Assembly (NCBI GenBank): GCA_013359255.1
Contig: JABWCF010000006.1
Location: 1-64,000, forward strand
Origin: Flavobacteriales bacterium
GTDB lineage: Bacteria; Bacteroidota; Bacteroidia; Flavobacteriales_E; Vicingaceae
Direction of reading: 5' to 3'
Length of the DNA stretch: 64,000 bases
Of the stretch, positions 24,989 to 32,658 are shown piece by piece. The first letter of the stretch is position 1. Every line of letters begins with the position of its first letter. The position numbers were made by a program, and so were the translations under genes. The notes under the pieces are model-generated. The model saw nothing but the letters and a program-made list of their open reading frames with translations. It was not told the DNA's origin and made no database searches.

Positions 24989-25746
24989 AAATTACATTTC
25001 TTGGCACAGGCACATCACAAGGAGTTCCCGTAATAGCCTGTAACTGCAAAGTATGTAAATCAACCGATCCAAGAAATAAGCGCACCCGAGCCTCTATAAA
25101 AATAGAAATTAAAGACAAAACTTTTGTAATAGATACTGGGCCAGATTTTCGCTACCAAATGCTTAAAAGCAACACTCAAAAATTAGATGCTGTACTATTT
25201 ACACACGAACACAAAGACCATATTGCCGGCTTAGACGATGTAAGAGCATTTAATTACCAAACCGGTCTCCCTATGGATATCTATGCCACACAAAGGGTAC
25301 AAGAAGCTATAAAAAGAGATTTTTATTATGTATTTTCCGGTGAAGGTTACCCCGGAATTCCAGAGCTAAAATTACATACCATATCTAACCAACCTTTTTC
25401 AATAAACGGTATTCATTTTATACCTATCGAAGTTTTGCATTATAAACTTCCTGTATTAGGTTTCAGGTTTGAAGACGTAACGTATATTACCGATGCAAAA
25501 AAAATTCCAAAAAATGAGATCGAAAAAATAAAAGGAAGTAAAATTTTAATACTAAATGCACTTCGAAAGGAAAAACATATCTCTCACCTTACTCTTTCCG
25601 AAGCATTGGACTTAGCAGAAGAAATAAAACCGGAAAAGACCTATTTAACACATATTAGTCATTTAATGGGTATGCATAACGAAGTAGAAAAAGAACTTCC
25701 AGAAAATATTTTTCTTTCTTTTGACAACTTAGAAATAAATACTTAA
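24985..25746 (+). CDS. PhnP-like metallo-beta-lactamase phosphodiesterase
   Basis: A 253-residue MBL protein: GTGTSQGVPVIACNCKVC near the N-terminus includes a Cys cluster (CNCKVC) as in the structural zinc site of PhnP. The catalytic motif is FTHEHKDHIAGLDD, followed by TYITDAKKIP and the C-terminal THISHLMG histidines. PhnP cleaves cyclic ribose phosphates, but many homologues occur without C-P lyase genes, as here, and their substrate is unknown. Coupled by a 4-nt overlap to the cysteine desulfurase gene. The stop codon lies in the terminator hairpin shared with the convergent SiaC-like gene. Confidence 0.82.
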   Translation: MKITFLGTGTSQGVPVIACNCKVCKSTDPRNKRTRASIKIEIKDKTFVIDTGPDFRYQMLKSNTQKLDAVLFTHEHKDHIAGLDDVRAFNYQTGLPMDIYATQRVQEAIKRDFYYVFSGEGYPGIPELKLHTISNQPFSINGIHFIPIEVLHYKLPVLGFRFEDVTYITDAKKIPKNEIEKIKGSKILILNALRKEKHISHLTLSEALDLAEEIKPEKTYLTHISHLMGMHNEVEKELPENIFLSFDNLEINT

Positions 25747-25790
25747 TGAAAAAAGCCCTTTTAGAGGGCTTTTTTCATTAAGTATTTATT
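25734..25790. terminator. Long bidirectional hairpin terminator
   Basis: Two perfectly complementary 25-nt arms (25734-25758 and 25766-25790) enclose a 7-nt loop. The core reads AAAAAAGCCC / GGGCTTTTTT. It contains the stop codon of the MBL gene and ends 8 nt before the stop of the convergent SiaC-like gene, so it can end both transcripts. Confidence 0.85.
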
Positions 25791-25797
25791 CGAAGAA

Positions 25798-26181
25798 TTA
25801 CTCCTCGTTGATTTGAATCATTTTAAAAGGAACACTAATAATTGCCTGATAATCCTCTCCTGCCTCAAGCATATCCTCATCATCTTCCTCGTAATGCCAA
25901 TTTATTATCACATTACTTCCGTTTGAATTTAAGACCTCTAATCTTTTAAAAATGTCTAAAATACACTTAGAAGAACTAGTATTGAAATATTCTAATTGTA
26001 CATCAACTTTCGTGTTACCTAATGGCTTAGATGTGTAAGCCTCAAGCATATCTACTAAAGGTTTATAAAATTCAATTGAGTTTTCAGGAATAGACCTTCC
26101 TCTAATTAACAACTCTCCTTTAACTGCATCAAATTTTATTGTTGGTGTTTTGGGTGTTCCTTCAATGTTTAAGTGTTCCAT
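25798..26181 (-). CDS. SiaC-like partner-switch phosphoprotein (DUF1987)
   Basis: A 127-residue protein of the SiaC/DUF1987 family: EGTPKTPTIKFD at 7-18, the IPENSIEFYKPLVDMLEAY helix region (31-49) and the conserved VQLEYFNTSSSKCILDIF (61-78). Thr68 in FNTSS is at the position phosphorylated in Pseudomonas SiaC, where phosphorylation by SiaB and dephosphorylation by SiaA switch partner binding. It lies 32 nt downstream of the SiaB-like kinase gene and is likely cotranscribed with it. Its output target is not visible: no diguanylate cyclase is nearby. Confidence 0.88.
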   Translation of the reverse strand: MEHLNIEGTPKTPTIKFDAVKGELLIRGRSIPENSIEFYKPLVDMLEAYTSKPLGNTKVDVQLEYFNTSSSKCILDIFKRLEVLNSNGSNVIINWHYEEDDEDMLEAGEDYQAIISVPFKMIQINEE

Positions 26182-26213
26182 AATTCATTTCCTATCTATA
26201 AGTTATACCGAAA

Positions 26214-26783
26214 TTACTGAGCTATATTTATGTTTAAACTAAAAAAAGAATGTTTTGAATCTACCGGATAAAATTGAAACTCTAAAGGCTTTCCTGATTT
26301 TCTGGCAATATCAATCATACCAAGCCCCCCCCCACCTTTTTCAGACATTTCACCATTGTTTAACACTTCCTTATAATATTCTTTCAATTCATCTTTGCTC
26401 ATAGCATTAATTTTTTCTAAACGCCCCTTCATCATGGAAACACTGTCGTTATACATGTAATTTCCGGTAATGATAGAATACTTATCTCCTTCTTTCACTA
26501 TCATAAAAATGGCTGTTTTGTCTTTTTCCCCATTTGCGGAGGCAATAGGATTTTCGTCAATATGGTGATATAGATTTTGTAAACATTCTACTAAAATGTT
26601 GTAAACCTTTTTCTTTATCTTGGGAGATTCTTCCATGGTATCCATTTTAGATTCCATAATTTGAAGAATGGAGGTTAACAACTCGGAAGTAATATCACCT
26701 TTAAAAGAGAGCATGATATTGTTTTTTTCCATTTTGTCGTAAAAATCAAAAATATCCAAATCCATTAAGTTGTTTCTTATCAT
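26214..26783 (-). CDS. SiaB-like protein kinase (DUF6272)
   Basis: A 189-residue protein with a degenerate GHKL/HATPase fold. An N-box-like ECLQNLYHH sits at 66-74 and a glycine-rich ATP lid KGGGGLGMIDIARKSG at 149-164. This fits the SiaB family, which phosphorylates SiaC. A run of Cs in the DNA (CCCCCCCCC at about 26325) encodes the glycine lid. A nearly full promoter lies just upstream, so it and the SiaC-like gene can be expressed without the phosphatase gene. A second ATG six codons in (26765) is also possible. Confidence 0.85.
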   Translation of the reverse strand: MIRNNLMDLDIFDFYDKMEKNNIMLSFKGDITSELLTSILQIMESKMDTMEESPKIKKKVYNILVECLQNLYHHIDENPIASANGEKDKTAIFMIVKEGDKYSIITGNYMYNDSVSMMKGRLEKINAMSKDELKEYYKEVLNNGEMSEKGGGGLGMIDIARKSGKPLEFQFYPVDSKHSFFSLNINIAQ

Positions 26784-26802
26784 TAAGATTTACTCTACCG
26801 TC

Positions 26803-26833
26803 CAAAGATATTAATTTGTCTTTATAATGCAAC
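26803..26833 (-). promoter_or_regulatory. Promoter of the SiaB-SiaC-like pair
   Basis: The minus strand reads GTTG, then 19 nt, then TATCTTTG, matching the Bacteroidota TTTG-N19-TAnnTTTG pattern at 11 of the conserved and spacing positions except one base. The expected start is about 14 nt before the kinase ATG. Confidence 0.6.
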
Positions 26834-26851
26834 TTTTTATCGAAAAAAAAA

Positions 26852-27673
26852 TTACATTTCGAAATCGTAAGTATTTCCGTTTACGGTAATCTTTGCTTTG
26901 TTGTCGCATTTTCCATCACCAAAATCTAATGTTCTTGCAGATTTTCCTTCGGGAGTTAGTTCAATTTTTCCTTTTTGAACCCATTTGCAGTTCATCGCTT
27001 TTATTAGAGGGGATGTAATTTTTGATGTAAAGGCTAAATCTTTTCTATTTACGCCATTTGAATTTCCCGATACTTCAACAATATCATCTGTTACGTCTGC
27101 TTCTGTATCAAAACCTTGTAACCACTTAAAGGTATGAGAGGACGCATATTTTATATTCCATTTTTCGGTTTCACAAATACCATCTACTACGGATACGGTA
27201 TATTGGCCAAGAGCATCGTGTTTTACTACTATTTTTCCTTTCAACTTAATGTTGCTGTCATAAAACTCATCGAAAGTAATGGTTAAAGATGAGCCCACTT
27301 GGTTCCAATAGTTATCGAGAGAAATTTTTAATTTCCCTTTTCTAAAGCGGGCATCGTGAGGGTCGGTACAACCTGCACCATAGTCAATGGTAAAGGTAAA
27401 AGGAAATGTTCCGAATGTTGAAACATCAGAAATTACAGCACAAGATGTTAAAGTATCAGTACCGGCAATACGGTTTACAGAACCGGGTTTAACACCGTTA
27501 TCTGCTATTACGATTCTATGAGTACTCGGAAAAACCTGAGAGTACATATTATCGGCAATACTGTTATCTACTGCAGTTTGTGTTTCAGTATCCACTTCAG
27601 CTTTTTTACAAGAAGTAATGCATATTGTGATTGAAACTAATATTAAAACGGTTAAGTAAATACGTTTTTTCAT
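26852..27673 (-). CDS. Hypothetical lipoprotein
   Basis: A 273-residue protein with a lipoprotein signal (TICITSCKKAE, Cys22). The mature part is almost all beta, with repeated strands ending in Gly/Lys (KGKLKISLDNYW, LKGKIVVKHDALG, WVQKGKIELTPEG). It has several Cys, including CTDPHDARFRKGK and GDGKCDNKAKITVNG. I do not recognise a characterised family; similar lipoproteins are common in Bacteroidota. It lies between the phosphatase and kinase genes of the SiaABC-like set, with its own TACATTTG element, so a link to that system is suggested by position only. Confidence 0.65.
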   Translation of the reverse strand: MKKRIYLTVLILVSITICITSCKKAEVDTETQTAVDNSIADNMYSQVFPSTHRIVIADNGVKPGSVNRIAGTDTLTSCAVISDVSTFGTFPFTFTIDYGAGCTDPHDARFRKGKLKISLDNYWNQVGSSLTITFDEFYDSNIKLKGKIVVKHDALGQYTVSVVDGICETEKWNIKYASSHTFKWLQGFDTEADVTDDIVEVSGNSNGVNRKDLAFTSKITSPLIKAMNCKWVQKGKIELTPEGKSARTLDFGDGKCDNKAKITVNGNTYDFEM

Positions 27674-27696
27674 AAGGTTAATTTTTTATACGAAAA

Positions 27697-27704
27697 CAAA
27701 TGTA
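27697..27704 (-). promoter_or_regulatory. -7 promoter element TACATTTG for the lipoprotein gene
   Basis: A perfect TAnnTTTG on the minus strand, 23 nt before the ATG and 10 nt downstream of the end of the phosphatase gene. The -33 box is not clear. Confidence 0.45.
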
Positions 27705-27713
27705 GTATTTTTT

Positions 27714-30700
27714 TTAAAATTTTATACCAATTATTAAAATATCATCCACCTGTTCATAATTTCCTTTCCATTTATTAAAAAGCTCATCTAATTTGCGTTG
27801 TTGCCCATTCATACTTAAATCAGAAATTTCCAGTAAAACATCTCTGAATCGTTTTACCATAAATTTTTTACCTTCTGTACCTCCGAACTGATCGGCATAA
27901 CCGTCCGAAAACATATAAATCGTTTCTCCTTCATTCAATTTCACAGTAACCGCTGAGAATGTTTTATTCTCTACCGTTTTAAGCCCACCTATTGGAAATT
28001 TATTTCCCTCAATTCTTTCGAGTTCATTTTTTCTAAGAATATAAAGTGGCCTGTACGCTCCGGAAAATTGCACTTCTCTTTTTGTGGTATCTATTATACA
28101 AAGGGCCACATCCATTCCGTCTCTTGTTTCTTGTTTATTACCACCTTCTTGTTTAAGAGATGTTATAATTGCTTTATTCAACAAATTGAGTATTTCTGCG
28201 GCATCAGTTACTGCATTTTCTATTACAATTTGGTTAAGTATATTATGCCCAATCATGCTCATAAAAGCACCAGGCACTCCATGTCCTGTACAATCAACTG
28301 CGGCAATAATTTTTTTACCATTCTTCTCTGCAAACCAGTAAAAATCTCCACTTACTATATCTTTAGGTTTATAAAGTATAAAAGATTTAGGAAAATGTTG
28401 ATAAATCTGTTCTAAAGGGGGTAAAATAGCTTCCTGAATCCTTTTAGCGTATTGTATGCTACTCAGTATATCTCTATTTTTTTCAGCTAGTTCTCGGGTT
28501 CGCTCCTTTACTTTTTGTTCCAGTATTTTTTTCTCTTTTTTAATTTTTTGCGTTCTAAGACGGTTATATACTACTACACTTAATATGAGGATTAAAATGC
28601 AGGTTGCATAAAACAGATTGGTTTTCCAAAACGGTGGAATTATTTTAATATGAATTGCTGTTCCTTCGTTATTCCAGAATCCATCGTTATTGCATGCTCT
28701 CACTCTAAACACGTAATTTCCTCCAGGTAAATTACTGTAACTCACAAACCTTCTGTTAGACGGGGGTGACCATTCGTCATCTAAGCCTTCTAATTTATAG
28801 CTATATAAATTTTTGGAAGGAAATAAATAATCGAGTGCAACAAACTCAAAAGAAAAGAACTTATCCTGATAACTGAGTTCTAGGTGTTTTTTAAAGGCTA
28901 TATTTGTATCTAGTGCTACTTCTTTTTCAAATATTTTAAACGAGGTAAGATATATTTTGGGTGGATTGGTATTGGTTTTAATTTGCGAAGGGTAAAAGGC
29001 ATTGTATCCATTCACTCCTCCAATTAGAATTTCTCCATCTTTACGTTTATAATATGCTCCCTGATTAAATTCCTTATCTTGAATCCCATCTACGGGTAAA
29101 TAATTTTTAAAGAGATTTTCATCTTTATCAAGGTTTATCGGGGAAAACTTAATCAAGCCGTTTCCTGATGTAAGCCAAATATTATCATCATTATCCTCAA
29201 TAACAGAAAATATCATATCGCTACACATTCCATCTTTCTCATAATAAGAAATCACTGATTTAGACTGTGTATCGTATTTATTTAATCCATTTCCTGAAGC
29301 TATCCAGAAAAAACCCTTGGAATCTTTATTAATCGAGTAAATTGTATTATTACTCAGTTCTCCGTCTTTACCTTTTGATTGAATTTTTTCGGTAACCACT
29401 CTTTTATGAATATCGAAGAGATTTACCCCATTGTTGGTTCCTATCCAAAGTACATTTTTTAAGCTATCATAATATATGCAATTTATAGAATTTGAGGTTA
29501 ATCCATCTAGAGTAGTGTAATTTATAAACTTTTGTTCGTTCTTGTTGTAAACACTTAATCCGTCTAGGGTTGCTATCCAAATGTTATTATAATTATCTTC
29601 TTCCATATCTAATATGGTATTCCCCATAATAGTTGTATTATTTATTGGGTTTTCTGTATTGAAGGGTTTGGAGAATTCTTTGGTTTCAGGGTTATAGAAG
29701 TTTACTCCCCCGCCCCATGAACCTATCCATATCAATCCTTCTTTATCTACATGTAGGCTTAAAATACGGTCGTGTATTTTATTTTCATTGAGTCTGTAAT
29801 TTTTTATAACCTTTTTATTTTTATCACAAACGCTTATTCCATCAAGTGTTGCTATCCAAATATTTTCTTTTGAATCTTCACAAAAAGCCATTACTTCATT
29901 GCCTATCAAGGGTAATGAGTCTCTGTTATTTTTAGTATAGTGCTTAAACTGATTGCTAAGTTTTTTATATACATTAATTCCCATTCCATCTGTACCTATC
30001 CAATTAATATTATTTTTACCTATTAAAACAAAACGGATTCTGTTATTGGATAACGAATAAGGATTATCTTCTTCGTGGTAGTAATGGGTAAATTCTTTGG
30101 TTGCGAAATCATAAATAAATAGTCCGTCCATAGAAGCTATCCACAACCTATCGTCCTCACTTTGGTTAATATGATAAATCCCAACGGCTTTTCCGCTTCC
30201 CGGATCTGCGAATTCATTAAATTTACGCGATTTAATATTAAACTGTTGTAGACCGGCCCCTCCGGTACCCACCCATAAATTCCCAAACTTATCTTGAAAC
30301 AATGTGCGAATAAAGACAGACTCTTCTTTTAAAAGATTTCCGGAGGGCAGCACATCTAAATATTGTATAAACTTTTTGGTTTCTTTTTGAAAAAGATGTA
30401 AGCCTCCTCCGAATGTACCTACCCACACGTTGTTTTCTATATCGATTAAAACACTAAAAACTCTGTTGTTTTTTAAGCCATTACTACCTTCGGTATAATG
30501 TTCTGTTTTTTTAGATGCATGGTTATATATATATAATCCACTTTCTGTTCCCAGATATAAATTACCACTCTTATCTTCGGTAATGCACTTTATAATTCCG
30601 CTAGTCAGCACATCGTTATCCGATTTAGATGTAAAACGAAAAAATTTATTGGTTATAGGATTATAATAATTTAAACCACCTCCATTTGTGCCTACCCATA

Positions 30701-30932
30701 TTAGGCCATTATTTGACTGGTGTAAACACCAAATAAAGTTATCGGATAAAGAATTTGTATCATTCGGAATGCGCTTAAATGTTTTAAACTCATATCCATC
30801 GTACCGATATAAGCCATCTTGGGTGCCTGCCCAAATATATCCCATATTATCCTCCAACATAGTGTTGATTACACTTTGCGTACCTTCTATGGAGGTAAAA
30901 CGCATGTCTTGCCCTACAATGAATATGGGCAA
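27714..30932 (-). CDS. Propeller-sensor SpoIIE-type (PP2C) phosphatase, SiaA-like
   Basis: A 1072-residue transmembrane signalling protein. Residues 1-650 are about 14 two-component-regulator propeller repeats (pattern (I/V)W(I/V)GT-x-G-(L/V)-x-x-(Y/F)). A Y_Y_Y domain follows (YSYKLEGLDDEW, GNYVFRVRACN), then one membrane segment (about 770-789), a basic coiled coil (KKILEQKVKERTRELAEKN) and a SpoIIE/PP2C phosphatase domain (GDFYWF, VDCTGHGVPGAFMSM, MFSDGYADQFGG). It would sense something in the periplasm and dephosphorylate a cytosolic anti-sigma-like partner, most simply the SiaC-like protein nearby. The TTG at 30932 cuts the signal peptide: the frame is open upstream, and IKTINIFLLFLLPIFIVGQ is encoded after a CTG at 30968, without any ATG, GTG or TTG. 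Confidence 0.85.
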   Translation of the reverse strand: MPIFIVGQDMRFTSIEGTQSVINTMLEDNMGYIWAGTQDGLYRYDGYEFKTFKRIPNDTNSLSDNFIWCLHQSNNGLIWVGTNGGGLNYYNPITNKFFRFTSKSDNDVLTSGIIKCITEDKSGNLYLGTESGLYIYNHASKKTEHYTEGSNGLKNNRVFSVLIDIENNVWVGTFGGGLHLFQKETKKFIQYLDVLPSGNLLKEESVFIRTLFQDKFGNLWVGTGGAGLQQFNIKSRKFNEFADPGSGKAVGIYHINQSEDDRLWIASMDGLFIYDFATKEFTHYYHEEDNPYSLSNNRIRFVLIGKNNINWIGTDGMGINVYKKLSNQFKHYTKNNRDSLPLIGNEVMAFCEDSKENIWIATLDGISVCDKNKKVIKNYRLNENKIHDRILSLHVDKEGLIWIGSWGGGVNFYNPETKEFSKPFNTENPINNTTIMGNTILDMEEDNYNNIWIATLDGLSVYNKNEQKFINYTTLDGLTSNSINCIYYDSLKNVLWIGTNNGVNLFDIHKRVVTEKIQSKGKDGELSNNTIYSINKDSKGFFWIASGNGLNKYDTQSKSVISYYEKDGMCSDMIFSVIEDNDDNIWLTSGNGLIKFSPINLDKDENLFKNYLPVDGIQDKEFNQGAYYKRKDGEILIGGVNGYNAFYPSQIKTNTNPPKIYLTSFKIFEKEVALDTNIAFKKHLELSYQDKFFSFEFVALDYLFPSKNLYSYKLEGLDDEWSPPSNRRFVSYSNLPGGNYVFRVRACNNDGFWNNEGTAIHIKIIPPFWKTNLFYATCILILILSVVVYNRLRTQKIKKEKKILEQKVKERTRELAEKNRDILSSIQYAKRIQEAILPPLEQIYQHFPKSFILYKPKDIVSGDFYWFAEKNGKKIIAAVDCTGHGVPGAFMSMIGHNILNQIVIENAVTDAAEILNLLNKAIITSLKQEGGNKQETRDGMDVALCIIDTTKREVQFSGAYRPLYILRKNELERIEGNKFPIGGLKTVENKTFSAVTVKLNEGETIYMFSDGYADQFGGTEGKKFMVKRFRDVLLEISDLSMNGQQRKLDELFNKWKGNYEQVDDILIIGIKF

Positions 30933-31024
30933 TAAAAATAAAAGAAATATATTAATTGTTTTTATCAGAATGGTTGAATTAAAAAGTAAAAGTATTAAAA
31001 AGTAACTTGTTAGAAAATTTGATT

Positions 31025-32581
31025 TTATTGTTTTATAATCTTGAAAATTTTACTCTCTATTATTAAAATGTAATATCCATTGTCTAAGTCCGAAATATTT
31101 ATAATACTACCTTGCATTTTAAACGGAATTTGTTTACCGTCTATACTATAAATTTTAACTTCTGTTTGAGGAGGAGTATTCGTAAATAGCAAACCAGAAG
31201 TAGGGTTCGGAAATACCGATAATGGAATCTCATTATTTTTTATTGCAGATATAGAGTTGGGCAATGTACAATTACCCGGTAAATAATAATCCATATACTC
31301 CGACCTAGATTGAAACCACCATTTTAGATAATTAATTTCTTCTTTATATGTATTGCCCACAAAGTAATTCCAGTTTACATAAACACCCAATATGGGCCAT
31401 TGAACAAAATTTCGTTGCTGAGCATCCTCTAAAAGTATTGCTACAGAATCTATCCAATGATTTACATATGTTGTTTTTAAAATGGTACTTCGCAGGTGCA
31501 GCCATCGGCATTGTACTTCATTCGCAAAAGTGGTATCCTCTAATAGTCGTTCCCACCATTCGGGTGGTTCTGTTGTGAACGATGGGCACACATTTGCAAA
31601 ATTGTATTGCCAGCCGGTTGTATCGTATGCACTACAATAATCGGCATTTCCGTACGACAGGTTAAAATCCCACATTGGACCACAAGTTAATTTTCCTCCT
31701 TTACTATCATTATCCTTATACATAAAACTACTGGAACGATAACCATCAACGGTTCTTCCTAATTCCTGCATCAACATAAAGTCTATAAAAGAACCTGTAT
31801 TTATAAATGCTCTATAACCTTGAACTGAGTCTTTAAAATTTGGACCGTACACCGCATTTTCAAAATTGGTAATATAATTTTTTATGTAATTACGCTCATT
31901 GGCATTGAGTTCGGCATACTCCGGATCGTGGTATAAAAATTTTAATTTGGTTTGATAAGGTGATGTCCAGGTTGTACTACTTCCTCCGGTTAGTTTATCT
32001 ATTTTAATAATATATCCGCCACTAATATTCCCGTTACTATCTAGCTTTGCTATGTTTACCCGGTTATAATCCCTTTTAATCTTTTCCATAAGGGAATAAA
32101 CCCCTTTGTATTGGCCGTTAATTACAAGTTCGCAATATACAAACCGAGGTGACCAAGGTTGCATTTTTCCGAATAAATCATATGTAATTTCATTTCTCAT
32201 TAATGTTTTGTCCGGATATGCACCATACAATATCCAGTCATTTTCTTTTGGCATGGTTAATAAAGAAACATTTTTTTTATTTCCTGAATTATCTACGGTT
32301 TCAAAACCATAACTTTTTTTTGGATATTGCTGCGAAGTAGATCCTCGTATTTCTATTGCTATTTTACCGTTGTAATTGTTATATGGATCGGTAATATTGT
32401 TTGTTATGCCCGGGCCATTCCATATAATTCCCATGTTACACATAATTCTAGGTTCATCAACTATTGTTTGATTGTTTGTATTTATTACAACAATAGGAAG
32501 ATTTGAACTGGTGAACACTACTTGAGCATTTACCTTTATAAGGTATAACAAAACATTAATTAAAAGAAAATATTTTTTCAT
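31025..32581 (-). CDS. CotH-kinase-family secreted protein with T9SS tail
   Basis: About 518 residues from the ATG at 32581, which gives a signal peptide (MKKYFLLINVLLYL...VNAQ). The CotH domain shows IEIRGSTSQQYPKKSYGFET, DWILYGAYPDKTLMRNE, GQYKGVYSLMEKIKRD and the metal-site segment GPMWDFNLSYGN. CotH proteins are atypical kinases first known for phosphorylating spore coat proteins; in Bacteroidota they are often secreted, with unknown targets. The end is a type IX sorting domain (VFPNPTSGLLFTN, VKIYSIDGKQI, DLDNGYYILIIES). It lies just upstream of the propeller phosphatase gene on the same strand. Confidence 0.83.
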   Translation of the reverse strand: MKKYFLLINVLLYLIKVNAQVVFTSSNLPIVVINTNNQTIVDEPRIMCNMGIIWNGPGITNNITDPYNNYNGKIAIEIRGSTSQQYPKKSYGFETVDNSGNKKNVSLLTMPKENDWILYGAYPDKTLMRNEITYDLFGKMQPWSPRFVYCELVINGQYKGVYSLMEKIKRDYNRVNIAKLDSNGNISGGYIIKIDKLTGGSSTTWTSPYQTKLKFLYHDPEYAELNANERNYIKNYITNFENAVYGPNFKDSVQGYRAFINTGSFIDFMLMQELGRTVDGYRSSSFMYKDNDSKGGKLTCGPMWDFNLSYGNADYCSAYDTTGWQYNFANVCPSFTTEPPEWWERLLEDTTFANEVQCRWLHLRSTILKTTYVNHWIDSVAILLEDAQQRNFVQWPILGVYVNWNYFVGNTYKEEINYLKWWFQSRSEYMDYYLPGNCTLPNSISAIKNNEIPLSVFPNPTSGLLFTNTPPQTEVKIYSIDGKQIPFKMQGSIINISDLDNGYYILIIESKIFKIIKQ

Positions 32582-32658
32582 TACCGAAAAACTTTGATTT
32601 TTAAAAATAAGCAAATTATACTTTCAACAAGCTAAATCTCTCAAAATTTCAGCAACTT

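Follow-up and report, generated by a model that had tools for sequence, protein, structure and literature searches.

A probable SiaABC-type threonine phosphoswitch with an HTCS-type propeller sensor in a member of the Flavobacteriales

Introduction

Can the kinase and the phosphoprotein of the SiaABC phosphoswitch serve a different sensor and a different output? The SiaABC proteins have been characterized in Pseudomonas, where they drive a c-di-GMP cyclase. The kinase SiaB phosphorylates SiaC on T68, the phosphatase SiaA reverses the reaction (PMC7647112), and unphosphorylated SiaC binds the stalk of the cyclase SiaD (PMC8457831). The question is raised by a set of genes in a 64,000-nucleotide stretch of Flavobacteriales DNA (hereafter the window) that belongs to contig C33; the genome measures 2.92 Mb and its completeness is rated at 100%. 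A first-pass annotation, made from the letters alone, had described the set as SiaABC-like, with both input and output exchanged. The follow-up analysis bears this out through family membership, active-site residues, SiaB-SiaC pairing, SpoIIE linkage, a gene fusion and the absence of GGDEF domains. We consider the set to be a phosphoswitch of SiaABC type, acting on threonine, whose sensor resembles those of the hybrid two-component systems (HTCS) of gut Bacteroides, and give this reading a probability of about 70%.

Results and Discussion

Organization of the locus

All four genes were confirmed where they had first been placed, at positions 25798-30965 of the window on the minus strand, with their profile matches and with a lipoprotein gene inside the set (Table 1). 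Read 5' to 3' on that strand, the order is propeller phosphatase, lipoprotein-like protein, SiaB kinase, SiaC phosphoprotein and a hairpin. A convergent block of other genes lies downstream, and no polysaccharide-utilization genes were identified adjoining the set. Upstream, a gene on the same strand (31025-32614) encodes a secreted protein with a CotH-like kinase domain and a type IX secretion tail.

Table 1. Predicted features of the gene set, in window coordinates
Feature	Position	Strand	Basis and remarks
Terminator-like hairpin, bidirectional	25739..25785	both	20-bp stem, then T-rich sequence on either strand; closes the SiaC side
SiaC-family phosphoprotein, 127 aa, predicted phosphosite Thr68	25798..26181	-	PF09345, E 1.3e-42
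SiaB-family protein kinase, 189 aa	26214..26783	-	DUF6272/SiaB PF19788, E 1.5e-42
Bacteroidota-type promoter TTG-N19-TATCTTTG	26803..26832	-	pattern scan; 19 nt before the SiaB ATG
Predicted lipoprotein, 273 aa	26852..27673	-	no Pfam or NCBIfam match
Propeller-sensor phosphatase (HTCS-type sensor and SiaA-type PP2C), ~1083 aa	27714..~30965	-	Pfam Reg_prop, Y_Y_Y, SpoIIE; PDB sequence matches; non-ATG start
SpoIIE/PP2C domain, all four metal-site motifs	27717..28316	-	PF07228; PDB match SiaA 6k4e, E 4.8e-39
Single transmembrane helix	28572..28628	-	hydropathy; helix 783-847 in AF2 model
Y_Y_Y domain	28641..28832	-	PF07495, E 1.4e-19
Beta-propeller sensor part	29145..30899	-	repeated four-strand units in modest-confidence AF2 model; matches 4a2l, 3v9f, 3ott

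The kinase and the phosphoprotein

The protein first described as DUF1987/SiaC-like scored 144.7 bits with PF09345 (cut-off 24.5), which places it in the family, and matched the Pseudomonas SiaC entries 6kko, 6kkp and 6k4f with an E-value of 7e-20. The Thr of its FNTSS motif, residue 68, aligned with T68 of Pseudomonas SiaC, and is Thr in 40 of 40 orthologues. SiaB scored 174.5 bits with the NCBIfam model SiaB_fam_kinase (NF038262; cut-off 85), which places it in that subfamily, and matched 6kko_A, from the Pseudomonas SiaB-SiaC complex, with an E-value of 1e-14. The Gly-rich ATP lid seen earlier is present, and the Glu and the Asn of the N-box are kept in 99 and 100, respectively, of 100 aligned sequences. 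In the closest named record, Flavobacteriales contig CAJPFH010000026, SiaB is 99% identical.

Among the loci fetched from the order, position 68 of SiaC is Thr or Ser in 74 of 74 proteins encoded beside SiaB and Ile in 13 of 21 unlinked ones; all 13 Ile68 proteins are unlinked to SiaB. If the residue is conserved for the sake of the kinase, Thr or Ser should persist in the linked proteins, as observed.

Two other arrangements of these genes were seen. SiaC paralogues in which Ile replaces Thr68 (FNIAS, FNIFS, FNIIS, FNIYS) occur at G000:C30:7858-8280 (L041) and at L199-L209, in a conserved block of an M61 peptidase, a LytS-type histidine kinase, a LytTR regulator, SiaC and an OmpH-like protein; they are predicted to be non-phosphorylatable SiaC proteins tied to a two-component locus. 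At G000:C16:178290-179594 (L042), a gene encodes a double SiaB of 365 aa, with two DUF6272 domains in tandem; it precedes SiaC and a TPR-SpoIIE gene in convergent orientation.

The kinase-SiaC pair had also been credited with its own promoter. TAnnTTTG is a Bacteroidota promoter element, and the motif was found before SiaB at the expected place. The pattern matched 10 times in the window versus 6.8 times in mononucleotide shuffles, so that a single match is weak. In 24 of 41 loci, from several genera, the motif recurs, mostly as TATCTTTG, no more than 150 nt ahead of SiaB, and because of this recurrence the SiaB-SiaC pair probably has a transcript of its own, apart from the phosphatase. With what seems to be a separate promoter, the pair may be made independently of this phosphatase, and other phosphatases could make use of it. 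A scan for sigma-70-type promoters was of no use, the site count being at chance.

The propeller-sensor phosphatase

The initial description of the phosphatase, with a propeller, a Y_Y_Y domain, one membrane helix and a SpoIIE domain, stood up to Pfam, hydropathy and PDB comparisons, while its start, and with it the length of 1072 residues, had to be corrected. No ATG precedes the signal peptide; the options in the open frame are a TTG at 30932, which falls too far downstream to include the signal peptide, or ATA, CTG or ATT at 30965-30971. A CTG-ATA-AAA-ACA stretch at the start is nearly unchanged in a 96%-identical relative, which suggests a rare start codon.

PDB matches to residues 1-801 were four distinct sequences, all of them HTCS sensors (4a2l, E 9.7e-92; 3v9f; 3va6; 3ott), and the propeller half aligned along its length with two-propeller HTCS sensors. 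The top Foldseek matches were BT4663, BT4673 and BT3049, obtained with a modest full-length AF2 model (pTM 0.39) that served for secondary structure and this check only. The double-propeller Reg_prop and Y_Y_Y sensor of HTCS proteins is thus present; in the cytoplasmic part, Pfam found SpoIIE only, and no histidine kinase, receiver or HTH domain. The C-terminal 282 residues had Pseudomonas SiaA (6k4e) as their only PDB match, and the NCBIfam SiaA model covers this part of the protein only. Loss of the metal-binding Asp residues had been named beforehand as evidence against the SiaABC reading; the motifs GDFY, DCTGHG, SDG and DDI are all present with Asp, and the domain belongs with the SiaA-type phosphatases.

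As judged from its predicted sequence, the protein is a chimera that joins two proteins known separately, an HTCS sensor and a SiaA-type PP2C. The matches of the sensor half to HTCS sensors also uphold the proposal that a two-component-type propeller replaces the HAMP-type sensor of SiaA. Among the openly available papers searched, none was found that describes a combination of SpoIIE with propeller sensors. Because HTCS sensors with this architecture sense oligosaccharides (PMC3243724), a glycan may reasonably be supposed to be the ligand of the propeller.

Comparison with known systems

The SiaABCD system of P. aeruginosa (PMC7647112, PMC8457831) has in common with the set a PP2C phosphatase, whose domain in SiaA 6k4e is matched here, a SiaB-family kinase, a SiaC with Thr68 and the gene order A-B-C on one strand. 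The two differ in the sensor, which is HAMP-bearing in SiaA and a propeller/Y_Y_Y sensor here, in the SiaD cyclase, which is absent from this genome, and in the lipoprotein gene, which is inserted here. Scores against the Pseudomonas equivalog models were below the cut-offs (209 against 700 bits for SiaA, NF038263; 95 against 225 for SiaB, NF038264; 95.5 against 150 for SiaC, NF038265), and the diguanylate cyclase output that marks SiaABCD was not found in the genome as a GGDEF domain. On sequence comparison, the set is a relative of Pseudomonas SiaABC and not its orthologous system.

The Bacteroides HTCS proteins BT4663, BT3049 and BT4673 likewise have a periplasmic propeller and Y_Y_Y sensor and one membrane helix, but carry a histidine kinase/receiver/DNA-binding cytoplasmic part where SpoIIE/PP2C is found here. 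The RsbU-RsbW-RsbV system follows the same logic of phosphatase, HATPase-fold kinase and STAS-like substrate; its kinase, however, is of the HATPase_c_2 family (PF13581) and its substrate has a Pfam STAS domain, whereas here the substrate is SiaC and the kinase matches DUF6272, not PF13581, which places the set outside the Rsb type.

Conservation of the neighbourhood

Co-occurrence of the genes was surveyed in 46 genomes of the order, from 16 genera, all of one family. SiaC was found in all 46 and SiaB in 44, and SiaC lies directly downstream of 68 of the 70 single-domain SiaB genes. The pair is present in the named strain Crocinitomix algicola (L084), whose SiaB is 57% identical. A SpoIIE gene stands within two genes of 27 of 82 SiaB genes, versus 3.7 expected; the binomial P of 1e-16 overstates the significance, as the genomes are related and the adjacencies lack phylogenetic independence. 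For the expected number, the SpoIIE density of one genome and an assumed gene number of 2600 were used. The conserved neighbourhood predicted at first was therefore recovered, with SiaB-SiaC pairing near-universal in the order and SpoIIE linkage recurrent.

Most genera of the order have the SiaB-SiaC pair without an adjoining phosphatase; upstream of these lone pairs are divergent genes that, by our reading of their sequences, are methyltransferase-like and ZIP-like. In the genome of the window, 28-29 SpoIIE proteins were counted versus 5 SiaC and 2 SiaB genes, SiaA was the best match of 8 of the 9 SpoIIE domains tested, and one RsbW-type kinase is found in every genome of the order. These numbers raise the possibility that the pair is a hub for several phosphatases: SiaB-SiaC would collect signals from many of the ~28 SiaA-type phosphatases, with TPR, propeller or other sensors, and the propeller would be one input among them. 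Such sharing is compatible with our main reading, and it fits the persistence of the pair throughout the order while the linked phosphatases change. On the other hand, some phosphatases in relatives have their own linked SiaB-SiaC pairs, which points to insulated circuits, and we regard the shared hub as a tentative proposal that falls short of even odds. As the genome has about 28 further SpoIIE proteins and four further SiaC genes, that the propeller phosphatase acts on the SiaC of the window is something we infer.

The same observations could be taken to mean that the propeller phosphatase is a chance neighbour, which acts on another SiaC paralogue or on an RsbW-type switch, while other phosphatases serve SiaB-SiaC. 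The frequency of lone pairs, the conserved promoter motif before SiaB, the ubiquity of the RsbW-type kinase and the lipoprotein gene that intervenes between phosphatase and SiaB all agree with this. Against it, the phosphatase domain is of SiaA type, and the propeller phosphatase is found upstream of SiaB-SiaC on the same strand in four genera of the order (g1, g7, g8 and g16) and in another family, f28; in g1 and g7 the lipoprotein gene separates it from SiaB. In a further genus (g15), an orthologous propeller phosphatase lies ~6 kb away. In a PP2C tree with weak backbone support, the SiaB-linked propeller phosphatases fell into four separate supported clades, f28 counted. In addition, a genome of family f32 (G205, L233:6165-8039) encodes a receiver (REC)-SpoIIE-SiaB fusion in one protein beside SiaC. 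As far as gene order can tell, the grouping of phosphatase, SiaB and SiaC is not a matter of chance, and we consider it unlikely that the propeller phosphatase of the window is a bystander.

Output of the switch

The earlier statement that no cyclase lies nearby was correct and proved too mild, since a profile search found no GGDEF domain in the whole of this genome. In the order, GGDEF was found in 3 of 46 genomes, versus 108 of 198 in a sample of the phylum, and the model gave matches in 8 of 14 control genomes. A cyclase output is thereby excluded as far as the GGDEF model can see, and the partner of SiaC here should be something other than a GGDEF diguanylate cyclase.

In family f28 (L229, L230), an operon begins with the same three genes in the same order, propeller phosphatase, SiaB and SiaC, and continues with a GGDEF protein whose match to the SiaD model starts at the stalk and scores below the cut-off; this SiaD-like cyclase is absent here. 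Since the propeller sensor is there paired with a cyclase, what distinguishes the present lineage is that it lacks the cyclase, rather than its sensor. A different gene follows SiaB and SiaC at L133, L167, L182 and L219-L221, where it encodes a TerB-ABC-ABC2 transporter protein of ~1023 aa; where the contig extends far enough, a PAS/GAF-SpoIIE gene lies upstream. Family f9 and the class IV loci of the order have a PAS/GAF phosphatase, SiaB and SiaC followed by a TerB-ABC-transporter protein. The TerB-ABC-ABC2 transporter is a candidate for a non-cyclase output of SiaC. With a cyclase after the set in f28 and a transporter in class IV, it appears that the kinase and SiaC form a fixed core for which both sensor and output can be exchanged.

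The surface of SiaC was compared among 40 orthologues of the window protein. Of the 9 SiaD-contact positions outside the Thr patch, 8 are invariant, compared with 45 of the 104 others (Fisher P 0.01, or 0.02 when each genus contributes one sequence). The contact face differs from that of Pseudomonas by charge swaps (D29R, D79K, R103D). The pattern fits a conserved partner other than SiaD, and may in part be due to binding of SiaB or of the phosphatase. That the output is still c-di-GMP, made by a diverged cyclase that the GGDEF model missed, might be argued from the f28 operon, but is highly improbable: the GGDEF model matched nothing in this 100%-complete genome or in 43 of the order's 46 genomes, it did give matches in controls, and the SiaD-contact residues are altered.

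The SiaABC-type switch with an HTCS-type sensor would then work as follows. A periplasmic ligand, probably a glycan by homology with HTCS sensors, would bind the double propeller and Y_Y_Y domain, and the signal, passed through the one membrane helix and a coiled coil, would alter the activity of the SpoIIE/PP2C domain. SiaB would phosphorylate Thr68 of SiaC and the phosphatase would remove the phosphate, as has been shown for the Pseudomonas proteins and as active-site residues and gene linkage indicate here. To bind its partner, unphosphorylated SiaC may use the face that contacts SiaD in Pseudomonas.

We suggest, with considerable reservation, that SiaB-SiaC of the order is a conserved phosphothreonine hub, served by interchangeable membrane sensor-phosphatases that include HTCS-type glycan sensors and directed at a target unrelated to c-di-GMP. 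On this view the SiaABC core would be a general module with exchangeable sensor and output, the f28 cyclase and the class IV transporter being examples of the latter. Such a role, if shown, would make SiaABC a general signalling module that joins sugar sensing to threonine phosphorylation, its kinase-SiaC core being near-universal in a Bacteroidota order almost devoid of GGDEF cyclases. The question posed is which protein binds the conserved and changed face of SiaC.

The lipoprotein-like protein

The lipoprotein gene is found directly upstream of SiaB in three genera (g1, g7 and g15). An AF2 model of the protein was all-beta with a pLDDT of 52, too poor for a fold search, and the fold assignment was dropped. 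Paralogues of the lipoprotein lie 4-5 kb before the orphan Ile68 SiaC in g8 and g16 (L199-L209), a second setting in which the protein is linked to SiaC.
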